DNA of 35,936 nt from Promethearchaeati archaeon (GTDB lineage Archaea; Asgardarchaeota; Atabeyarchaeia; Atabeyarchaeales; Atabeyarchaeaceae), in the NCBI GenBank assembly GCA_019058495.1, contig JAHPYV010000004.1:1-35936 (forward strand), given 5' to 3'. This document shows positions 1,883 through 4,713 of this stretch, in pieces. A model generated the notes under the pieces. It saw only the letters and a list, made by a program, of their open reading frames with translations. It ran no database searches and was not told the origin of the DNA. Position 1 is the first letter of the stretch. The number at the start of each line of letters is the position of its first letter. A program made the translations under genes and the position numbers.

Positions 1883-2551
1883 CTAGATCAGCCCCATGGA
1901 TTCCTCTATCCTGTCAAGTTCTGGACCGGTTGTCGCACTTCCGGCTACAGCACCTTTTGAATTCACTAGCAGTCCTGATTTGACGTAAGGGATCCCTCTA
2001 TTGACAGTGCCGACGCTGGTCGGCACACCCAGAACTTCCGCCAACAGGTCGAGTTCTTCATCACTTGCGCGTGGACTGACAAGGGCTCCTTTATTCGTTA
2101 CAACGGCTGATGAGCCTACAAGTCCAGATCCTCCGACTCTAGATGAAACGACTCTTACTTTCAGAATGGACTCAATGGATTTTCTAGTGACTTCTCTCAA
2201 TTTCGGGTGAACTATAGCACCATGGTCGTTGGCTAGAATTATGTTGCCCAAAGCTGTCAGATTTGTATTTAACCTTGATACTTTCGCTCCTAGCGAGTTC
2301 TGTATTAACTCGACTTCACTATCAGAGGCAAGGTAAGGAACGATCATTGCGTTGGAATTGCCAGCAATCAAGATACCAAGCAAAGTAGTCTGAAGTATCT
2401 TTGCTTCGACAGCCGTGACCCCCAGTGTTTGTTCGATTACTTTCTTCGTCCTTAGCGTAAGTCCAATAGGTACCAGTGCGTGGTTCTCTGTTGCCAAAGC
2501 GTGCACGCCGATGTTTGGATTACCCAAGAAGTCGATTAGATCAATAGGCAA
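1883..2551 (-). CDS. eif6: Translation initiation factor aIF6
   Basis: Anti-association factor that binds the 50S subunit and blocks premature joining to 30S. The 222-aa length is typical, and the protein shows the pseudo-repeat pattern of the pentein propeller: FLGNPNIGVHALATENHALVP at the start, then repeats around ALGNIILANDHGAIVHP, SSAVVTNKGALVSP and SGLLVNSKGAVAGS. The start is TTG 2551: an in-frame TGA lies immediately upstream, and GGTGA, complementary to the 16S 3' end, lies 8 nt before the TTG. It is cotranscribed with eL31 upstream and LX downstream. Confidence 0.95.
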   Translation of the reverse strand: MPIDLIDFLGNPNIGVHALATENHALVPIGLTLRTKKVIEQTLGVTAVEAKILQTTLLGILIAGNSNAMIVPYLASDSEVELIQNSLGAKVSRLNTNLTALGNIILANDHGAIVHPKLREVTRKSIESILKVRVVSSRVGGSGLVGSSAVVTNKGALVSPRASDEELDLLAEVLGVPTSVGTVNRGIPYVKSGLLVNSKGAVAGSATTGPELDRIEESMGLI

Positions 2552-2634: not shown

Positions 2635-2997
2635 TCACTCAGCCGGATATAGTGTCACGTTTCCTTCATCATCTTTTGTGGCGCGAACCTTGACTTTTCT
2701 TGGCGGGTTTCTGATTCCATTTATCCAAATGGCCTCGTTGAGATCCTTAGTGATTAAAACTTTCTCAGCTTTCATGTGCCGAGTGAAGAAGGCTCTAATT
2801 AACCTGATCGCTTTGGTGCTTCTTTTGTAATATGGTGCGTAACGGGTTCTGGACAAAGGAACTGTGTAAACTCTCTCCTCTAGTTGGGAGGGTGGAGTAG
2901 CTTTGGTTTCTGTTTCTGCCGGTATCATGGATTTTTCTCTTGGCTCTTCCTTGGCTGCTTCTTTTTTTTCACTGTGGCTACCTTTTTCTTTTGACAT
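2635..2997 (-). CDS. rpl31e: 50S ribosomal protein eL31 with charged N-terminal extension
   Basis: Large-subunit protein near the exit tunnel. The conserved core begins near residue 41 (LEERVYTVPLSRTRYAPYYKR) and continues through KAIRLIRAFFTRHMKAEKVLI and NEAIWINGIRNPPRKVKV. The first ~40 residues are a Lys/Glu-rich low-complexity tail absent from the shorter archaeal homologues (usually ~80-95 aa). The ATG at 2997 follows an AAGGACGTGA-like SD. It lies immediately downstream of the intron-containing eL39 gene, in the usual eL39-eL31-aIF6 order. The tail could be a lineage-specific extension; an internal start would need another ATG/GTG/TTG just before the core, and none is clearly better. 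Confidence 0.93.
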   Translation of the reverse strand: MSKEKGSHSEKKEAAKEEPREKSMIPAETETKATPPSQLEERVYTVPLSRTRYAPYYKRSTKAIRLIRAFFTRHMKAEKVLITKDLNEAIWINGIRNPPRKVKVRATKDDEGNVTLYPAE

Positions 2998-3017: not shown

Positions 3018-3226
3018 CTAAGGTTTAACGCTACTTGAGCGCCAGTTTCTTTTGCCAGGGTGCGTTCTGACTTTCCTGTTGGTCTTCACAACTTAGTGGT
3101 TCCCTCAAACGAGGACCCAGATGGCAGGAGCATCCGCTAAGGGAAAATCCACGTTGGGACAGACTTATTCTCCTTCAATGCATGTGCAAGTCTCAATTTC
3201 TTTCCAAGTGGTTTGTTTCGCGCCAT
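3018..3226 (-). CDS. rpl39e: 50S ribosomal protein eL39, gene split by a BHB intron
   Basis: Tiny basic ribosomal protein that lines the exit tunnel. Exon 1 (3226-3147) starts at ATG with [20 protein letters not shown] and reads to ...SVPTW plus AT of an Ile codon. Read straight through, the frame meets TAG three codons later. Exon 2 (3093-3018) supplies the rest in another frame: [18 protein letters not shown] and a short tail, ending in TAG. Removing 53 nt (3146-3094) joins AT to A (Ile27) and gives exactly 51 aa, the normal length, with the normal motif order [17 protein letters not shown]. A GAGGTGA SD lies about 10 nt before the ATG. The gene order eL39-eL31-aIF6 is conserved, so this is a functional spliced gene rather than a pseudogene. 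Confidence 0.95.
3094..3146 (-). other. 53-nt archaeal bulge-helix-bulge intron in the eL39 mRNA
   Basis: Read on the minus strand, the junctions form a strict hBHBh' motif. The outer exon helix is CAAC (3156-3153) with GTTG (3092-3089). The central 4-bp helix is GTGG (3152-3149) with CCAC (3099-3096). The intron helix is TTCCCTT with GAGGGAA, 7 bp with one G-U. The two opposed 3-nt bulges are ATT (3148-3146) and TAA (3095-3093). Canonical cleavage after the second bulge nucleotide (AT^T and TA^A) removes 53 nt and restores the eL39 frame. This is the substrate of the archaeal tRNA-splicing endonuclease. The intron length is not a multiple of three and carries stops, so unspliced mRNA cannot make eL39. 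It encodes no protein. Confidence 0.94.
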
Positions 3227-3317: not shown

Positions 3318-3650
3318 CTACCTGAAGGATATTTTGGACTCTCTTTTCTTACTCTGTAACTTGACCAAGATGTCTTTCATTTGCTCATCTGTTATTGGAA
3401 CGGCTATCTTGCCAGACTGAGCTAACTGGATCAATTGTAACTCCAGTTGTTCAGCAAACTCTGGCTTGACCATCTTGATGTTCATCAAGCGGCTCCTAGC
3501 TTCATCCGTAAGGATCTGTCTAAGTGCGGCTTGTTTTTGGGATTCGAGCTCTCTGCGTGCCTCGTCTTGCCTGCGGGCTTCAGCAATTTGCTGCTGGAGT
3601 TGTTGCAATCTTCGCTTCTTTATATCTTCAAGATCTTCATCTTCAGCCAA
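3318..3650 (-). CDS. PDCD5-family DNA-binding protein
   Basis: Archaeal homologue of PDCD5/TFAR19, a small helical protein reported to bind nucleic acid and, in eukaryotes, chaperonin partners. The frame reads EDEDLEDIKKRRLQQLQQQI, then an Arg/Gln-rich helix, then RQILTDEARSRLMNIKMVKP and the C-terminal LAQSGKIAVPITDEQMKDIL, the family signature. The start is TTG 3650 (MAEDEDLEDIKK; 110 aa): GGAGGTG lies 8 nt upstream, and the longer in-frame extension to 3698 is unlike the family. It sits 71 nt after eS19 and before eL39, the conserved archaeal order. Confidence 0.92.
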   Translation of the reverse strand: MAEDEDLEDIKKRRLQQLQQQIAEARRQDEARRELESQKQAALRQILTDEARSRLMNIKMVKPEFAEQLELQLIQLAQSGKIAVPITDEQMKDILVKLQSKKRESKISFR

Positions 3651-3721
3651 ACAAGCCACCTCCAGAGACCAAGCCGTCCAGGAACAAGGTAATTTCACAC
3701 CATGCCGGTGCTGTTCTTGGA

Positions 3722-4183
3722 TTAGTACTTTCGCAGTTCTGGGATCGCTTCTTTCTGCACAGATGACCTCACCCTATGAGCGACCCTGTCGAGTAGAGAA
3801 ACTCCTTTAGCGGTAAGCTTTCTTCCTTCTGACTCTTTCTTTTCTACAAGACCTACTCCTTCCAGCTCCTGAAGTATCTTTCTGACTATTGACCCACTTC
3901 CACTTCTAGCTTGGATTGGAGCAGAGCCTCTATTCTTGCCACCGCCGTATTCAGCCCTCAGTCGTGATACTCCAATCGTATTCTTAACGTAGAGTTTTCG
4001 AAGTACTGAAGCACAGCGAGTATACCACCAATCGGGTTGAGTAGGCGTTCTTGACTTATGGACACCTGTCTTAACAAAGTCTGCCCATGGTGGAGACTTA
4101 ATAGTATCAGAGAAATTCTTTCTCAGCTCTTCTGTTAACGCCTTTATGAATTCGTTGACTGGTACCAAATTGACCGTTGACAC
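3722..4183 (-). CDS. rps19e: 30S ribosomal protein eS19
   Basis: Small-subunit protein of the 30S head, 153 aa. Motifs: PPWADFVKTGVHKSRTPTQP, WWYTRCASVLRKLY, IGVSRLRAEYGGGKNRGSAP and the C-terminal winged-helix segment IVRKILQELEGVGLVEKKES, followed by GRKLTAKGVSLLDRVA. The start is GTG 4183 with AGGTGA 7 nt upstream. A TATA-like palindrome (4317-4328) lies upstream with a leader of about 110 nt, so this gene probably starts the transcript running through PDCD5, eL39, eL31 and onward. Confidence 0.96.
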   Translation of the reverse strand: MSTVNLVPVNEFIKALTEELRKNFSDTIKSPPWADFVKTGVHKSRTPTQPDWWYTRCASVLRKLYVKNTIGVSRLRAEYGGGKNRGSAPIQARSGSGSIVRKILQELEGVGLVEKKESEGRKLTAKGVSLLDRVAHRVRSSVQKEAIPELRKY

Positions 4184-4353: not shown

Positions 4354-4713
4354 TCACTGAACTGGCACAAGAGGTGTTCTATTAACATTTCTGCGCGATA
4401 TTCTTCCACAATAGAGGCACCGAATCACAAGGTGTGCTTGCCTATTTGACCGAATCCGCACAGTGCAGTTGAGCCCAGGGGACAATAGGGTGTTACACCC
4501 TTTGCATATCCTCCACTTCCAGTTTGAGGGTATCCTAACTCTGCATCTTGTTCCTATGCGGATAGCAATCGAAACATATTCGCGAGAAAGATCAGGATCA
4601 GCGCGTAGTTTCTGTTCGGCTAGCGAGAACAAACGTTTGATCCTATCTTTCGCGATATTCCTAAACAGAAACTTGTTCCTCGAAAAGAATCTTGGTCGAC
4701 CCTTCTTCGACAT
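4354..4713 (-). CDS. rnp4: Ribonuclease P protein component 4 (Rpr2/Rpp21)
   Basis: Zinc-ribbon protein subunit of archaeal RNase P, which trims pre-tRNA 5' ends. The N-terminal helices (DRIKRLFSLAEQKLRADPDL, YVSIAIRIGTRCRVRIP) precede the ribbon: CKGC, then LLSPGLNC, then CLYCG, with four zinc cysteines and a basic RRNVNRTP tail. The frame is open to TTG 4794, but a TATA box at 4803-4813 would place the transcription start near 4780. I therefore prefer ATG 4713 (MSKKGRPRFFSRNKF, 119 aa), which fits family length. It heads the translation cluster and diverges from Nep1. Confidence 0.9.
   Translation of the reverse strand: MSKKGRPRFFSRNKFLFRNIAKDRIKRLFSLAEQKLRADPDLSREYVSIAIRIGTRCRVRIPSNWKWRICKGCNTLLSPGLNCTVRIRSNRQAHLVIRCLYCGRISRRNVNRTPLVPVQ

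Follow-up and report, generated by a model that had tools for sequence, protein, structure and literature searches.

An interrupted eL39 gene

The question raised by this locus is how an intact ribosomal protein eL39 can be made from a gene (rpl39e) that lies in two pieces. The gene is found in Promethearchaeati archaeon (assembly GCA_019058495.1, contig JAHPYV010000004.1). Positions 1–35,936 of the forward strand were analysed, and this whole stretch of 35,936 nucleotides is called the window here. The two pieces of eL39 are separated by a 53-nt insert (Table 1), and the unspliced reading frame meets a stop after 29 amino acids. The gene order around it (eS19, PDCD5, eL39, eL31, aIF6, eL20/L18a, prefoldin alpha) is the usual archaeal one. 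We conclude that eL39 very probably carries a genuine archaeal pre-mRNA intron of the bulge-helix-bulge (BHB) type, removed by the tRNA-splicing endonuclease EndA and sealed by the ligase RtcB. The basis for this reading is the split gene, a strict BHB at the junction, the same signal and site in two species, the lack of an intact copy and the presence of the enzymes.

Table 1. Positions of the eL39 pieces, the elements of the splice signal, the neighbouring genes and two cbf5 introns (window coordinates unless a contig is named).
Feature	Position	Strand	Details
eL39 exon 1	3147..3226	-	80 nt; ATG to AT of the split Ile codon; PF00832 positions 1-19, E 1e-4
eL39 BHB intron (predicted), TTTCCCTTAGCGGATGCTCCTGCCATCTGGGTCCTCGTTTGAGGGAACCACTA	3094..3146	-	53 nt; signal conserved in L036 4397-4448
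eL39 exon 2	3018..3093	-	76 nt; starts with A of the split Ile codon, ends with stop TAG; PF00832 positions 20-42, E 8.5e-5
Outer helix, 5' arm CAAC	3153..3156	-	pairs with GTTG 3092-3089; 4 Watson-Crick pairs
Central 4-bp helix, 5' arm GTGG	3149..3152	-	pairs with CCAC 3099-3096; 4 Watson-Crick pairs
5' bulge ATT	3146..3148	-	predicted cut AT|T by the canonical BHB rule
Inner helix, 5' arm TTCCCTT	3139..3145	-	pairs with GAGGGAA 3106-3100; 6 Watson-Crick pairs and 1 G-U
Inner helix, 3' arm GAGGGAA	3100..3106	-	local fold and pairing
Central helix, 3' arm CCAC	3096..3099	-	local fold and pairing
3' bulge TAA	3093..3095	-	predicted cut TA|A by the canonical BHB rule
Outer helix, 3' arm GTTG	3089..3092	-	pairing
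aIF6 gene	1883..2551	-	same cluster as eL39; PF01912 E 6.1e-67
eL31 gene	2635..2997	-	immediately downstream of eL39; PF01198 E 1.1e-14
PDCD5-type DNA-binding protein gene	3318..3698	-	upstream of eL39; PF01984 E 6.8e-29
eS19 gene	3722..4183	-	upstream of eL39; PF01090 E 1e-50
cbf5 intron, window genome	L089 1461-1501 (contig C270)		strict BHB
cbf5 intron, GB_154	L090	-	strict BHB

A strict hBHBh' motif spans the junctions, with a 4-bp central helix, two 3-nt bulges, and outer and inner helices. An α2β2 tRNA-splicing endonuclease would cut the pre-mRNA at the two symmetric bulges, after which RtcB would join the exons, restoring an AUA isoleucine codon and an eL39 of 51 amino acids; the excised 53 nt may be closed by it into a circle as well. 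The predicted spliced junction reads CCAACGTGGAT|AGTTGTGAAG, and that of the intron circle CCACTA|TTTCCC. An earlier note on this DNA had described two eL39 halves 53 nt apart with an hBHBh' at their junctions, and the coordinates, sequence, helices and bulges all agree with that description. Its proposal that canonical cleavage yields an intact 51-residue protein with AT|A at the junction also holds, as the BHB-predicted excision restores exactly that protein. The note named a second intact rpl39e as an observation that would refute a BHB intron. When the window genome (284 contigs, 94% complete) was searched with the PF00832 profile, the only matches over the cut-off were the two halves, and the intron itself is supported by the gene anatomy, this missing copy, a splice signal shared with another species, and the endonuclease and ligase that the genomes encode. 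A group I or group II intron was ruled out, as 53 nt is too short for a self-splicing catalytic core and the locus has no Rfam match.

The rpl39e of related genomes, which the note had suggested searching for BHB motifs, carries such an intron in one relative. It lies at the same site and in the same phase, is 52 nt long and occupies positions 4397–4448 of L036, a contig of the metagenome-assembled genome (MAG) GB_154, which is filed as Ca. Njordarchaeum guaymaensis. That genome likewise contains no further eL39.

To place the cut site, every excision of 0–100 nt within the gene (12,883 in all) was scored with an eL39 HMM built from Asgard relatives, and the BHB was not used. The highest score belonged to the BHB-predicted excision, whose product matches the profile across its full length (93.7 bits, compared with 55.1 unspliced). 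A neighbour displaced by 1 nt (+1 nt) tied with it and encodes the identical protein. The BHB-predicted excision was also the best in the second species (97.5 vs 55.2 bits unspliced).

We also estimated how often such a signal would arise by chance. With the exons fixed, 40 of 300,000 shuffles of the intron gave a 4-bp central and a 7-bp inner helix at the junction. The analytic probability of all 15 BHB pairs ranges from 1e-9 (as observed) to 1e-7 (G-U pairs allowed everywhere). Pairing alone is not rare at the scale of a genome, since 33 comparable motifs flanked on each side by an open frame occur in 1.05 Mb of the window genome. The case thus rests on position, restoration of the protein and conservation; what makes the motif significant is that it falls precisely where a conserved gene is split and that the second species keeps it. 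A blind scan for strict BHB motifs over about 1.28 Mb of the same genome returned 870 candidates. Among these, cbf5 came first in a combined ranking of pairing and flanking open-frame length, and eL39 was ninth by pairing score. The other high-scoring candidates, whose translations were inspected by eye, restored no recognisable protein, save one match resembling an RNA gene.

Splicing enzymes and cbf5 introns

A BHB intron requires a suitable EndA architecture and RtcB in its host, and both intron-bearing genomes provide them. Each contains exactly two strong members of the EndA family (PF01974) and one RtcB. The closest match of the catalytic subunit is the tRNA-splicing endonuclease 3p1z/3ajv (3.6e-46), which we take to be chains of the Aeropyrum pernix enzyme, and the Tyr, His and Lys positions are kept. 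The second subunit lacks the catalytic His. Judged by these residues, it is apparently inactive, and the enzyme apparently of the α2β2 type. Two EndA copies are the rule among the Asgard genomes searched. The two-subunit type has been tied to broad BHB specificity and to crenarchaeal cbf5 splicing (PMC2738675).

The Rfam tRNA model found only 13 tRNA genes in the 94% complete window genome. Most of them exceed the length of a tRNA that lacks an intron, and both of those within the window measure 94–95 nt. It is probable that many tRNAs of this genome carry more than one intron, or introns of a non-canonical or split-gene kind. One tRNA-like sequence (L156 4297–4325, contig C86) has a 29-nt BHB-flanked insert in an apparent T-loop, with GGTTCAAA|TCCTGCCGCC left after its removal; ARAGORN called no tRNA there, whether the insert was present or removed.

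The cbf5 gene is interrupted by BHB introns of 17–41 nt in 14 Asgard genomes, in each case between G and AT (G|AT) of the codon for the catalytic Asp. The set comprises the window genome, GB_154 and a further twelve genomes belonging to four families (L186–L197), the last traced from partial matches in a search of 57 genomes. The base at which the intron lies is exactly that of the crenarchaeal cbf5 intron, as given in PMC2738675. In the twelve further genomes the introns measure 17–35 nt and occupy the same base; their central helices vary between families with the pairing kept, and in one of the twelve (G013) the inner helix is not continuous. The MAG G051 (L187, L198) contains two cbf5 genes, only one of which has an intron (17 nt), and it is either a mixed bin or a case of paralogy. 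We found no report of cbf5 introns or of BHB motifs in Asgard archaea in the literature searched. The cbf5 intron, present in the window genome and widely in Asgard, had been missed by the earlier note. The occurrence of cbf5 BHB introns in the same genomes strengthens the case for pre-mRNA BHB splicing in these organisms.

The probable eL39 intron in two species

Between the two species the outer helix, the central helix and the bulges of the eL39 BHB are identical, and the intron-side BHB bases agree at 18 of 21 positions. The core pairs are invariant, which is conservation with almost no covariation. In the intron loop, 17 of 36 columns match, no better than in shuffled loops (median 16), and outside the splice signal the intron is, by this comparison, randomised. 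Retention of the motif in the relative points to selection on the splice signal, although the eL39 intron is carried by these two species only.

When the 79 nt around the intron were folded, the minimum-free-energy structure was exactly the BHB in both species, unprompted. The 217-nt whole-transcript fold showed no stable overall structure (z 0.57), the BHB being seen in local and constrained folds. In the whole-ORF fold of the window sequence, the mean pair probability of the BHB was 0.40 at 37 °C and 0.13 at 70 °C, so it is partly populated, which counts against the intron; in the second species the values were 0.91 and 0.76. The competition with other folds in the window species would suit a real intron whose splicing is deliberately inefficient and which limits the supply of eL39 or serves as a readout of tRNA-splicing capacity. 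For the cbf5 intron, negative regulation has been proposed (PMC2738675), and the products of both interrupted genes work either in the ribosome or on the modification of rRNA. However, almost complete formation of the BHB is predicted in the second species, and retention by drift explains the intron equally well. We consider such regulation unlikely; it would add to the intron reading rather than oppose it. The earlier note's two wider proposals, that splicing is essential for ribosome assembly here and that it could couple ribosome supply to tRNA processing, reach further than the data; in yeast, eL39 is dispensable.

A stem-forming insert could also be passed over by the ribosome. Translational bypassing is known from phage T4 gene 60, whose gap is about as long as the eL39 insert, and the stem-loop would then be the bypass signal. 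This is disfavoured because the take-off and landing codons differ: take-off would be at ATT, whereas the frame would resume directly after a stop triplet, TAA. Moreover, what is conserved is the exact BHB, its central helix of 4 bp and its two bulges of 3 nt included, for which bypassing has no need, and cbf5 in these genomes shows this architecture at an established splice site. Bypassing of the 53 nt is therefore very improbable.

We give equally little credence to a decaying gene, in which an insertion would have broken an eL39 that was no longer needed. The frame is interrupted, and loss of so small a protein is conceivable. However, the exons are identical between the species at 70 of 80 and 67 of 76 positions, with most of the variation at third codon positions, the ends of the insert agree to the base around a randomised loop, and neither genome has another copy. 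The evidence for the intron comes from two fragmented MAGs, one of which (GB_154) appears mixed, but an assembly or binning artefact is scarcely credible when two diverged sequences from separate MAGs share site, phase and signal, differ in length and loop and both lie in an ordinary archaeal ribosomal gene order. It is because of this two-species pattern that both the pseudogene and the artefact are disfavoured.

The identity of the second species needs some care. The estimated contamination of GB_154 is 12%, and conflicting placements have been reported for GB154 (PMC10989867). Its identity to the window genome is 89% for RpoB, 78% and 79% for EndA α and β, 80–84% for Cbf5, 88–93% for the eL39 exons and 72% for aIF6, the lowest value being that of the Rpp21-type RNase P protein (57%). 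Comparison of the window genome with the GTDB genus-mates of GB_154 gave mostly 25–50% identity (54–66% for eL39). We do not place the relative with the intron in 'Njordarchaeia' without qualification, as the GB_154 genes are near those of the window genome, unlike those of the genus-mates. From these identities, L036 looks like a second species of the window lineage within a mixed or misfiled bin, and we assert no name for it. If the GB_154 bin is mixed, this could account for the disagreement over where Njordarchaeota belong.

An eL39 match was obtained in 213 of the 228 Asgard genomes searched. Among the matches listed, the gene is split only in the window genome and in one genome with the match values of GB_154, taken to be GB_154; the remaining listed matches cover the full or nearly full profile length in one frame. 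Since eL39 lies in one piece in the listed matches of the other Asgard genomes, a gain within this lineage is the likeliest origin of the intron.

Significance and comparison with known systems

The eL39 gene looks to be the second with an archaeal pre-mRNA intron, after cbf5, with no earlier case in the literature searched. That literature covered few subscription journals and contained no report of an intron in eL39/L39e, consistent with the earlier note's statement that none had been described in rpl39e. It seems likely that a second archaeal protein-coding gene, that of a ribosomal tunnel protein, depends on pre-mRNA splicing by EndA and RtcB, and that, together with the Asgard cbf5 introns, tRNA-type mRNA splicing is an established Asgard feature and not a crenarchaeal curiosity. 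If true, such splicing would be established in the closest archaeal relatives of eukaryotes. The cbf5 intron has for two decades stood alone as the accepted BHB intron of an archaeal coding sequence, and eL39 would show that gain is possible in other genes. The cbf5 introns at the crenarchaeal site across several Asgard families bear on the age of archaeal pre-mRNA splicing. Archaeal gene annotation is unreliable at BHB-split loci, and the two-subunit EndA could be tested in a simple way with the eL39 pre-mRNA as its substrate.

Among known systems, a 2020 study gave cbf5 as the only further BHB intron known in archaea (PMC7714728). The crenarchaeal cbf5 intron (Watanabe 2002; Yokobori 2009, PMC2738675) measures 16–44 nt and its motif is frequently relaxed, whereas the eL39 intron lies in another gene and in an Asgard lineage, measures 52–53 nt and has a strict motif, its splicing being predicted here from the sequence. 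The BHB introns of archaeal tRNAs and rRNAs share its cleavage motif and presumably its EndA/RtcB pathway; unlike them, the eL39 intron lies in an mRNA with a protein product and has no homing endonuclease. The transcript of HVO_1309 in Haloferax is similar in that a BHB in an mRNA is processed by EndA, but there the BHB is in the 5' UTR (PMC7714728), whereas that of eL39 interrupts the coding sequence.
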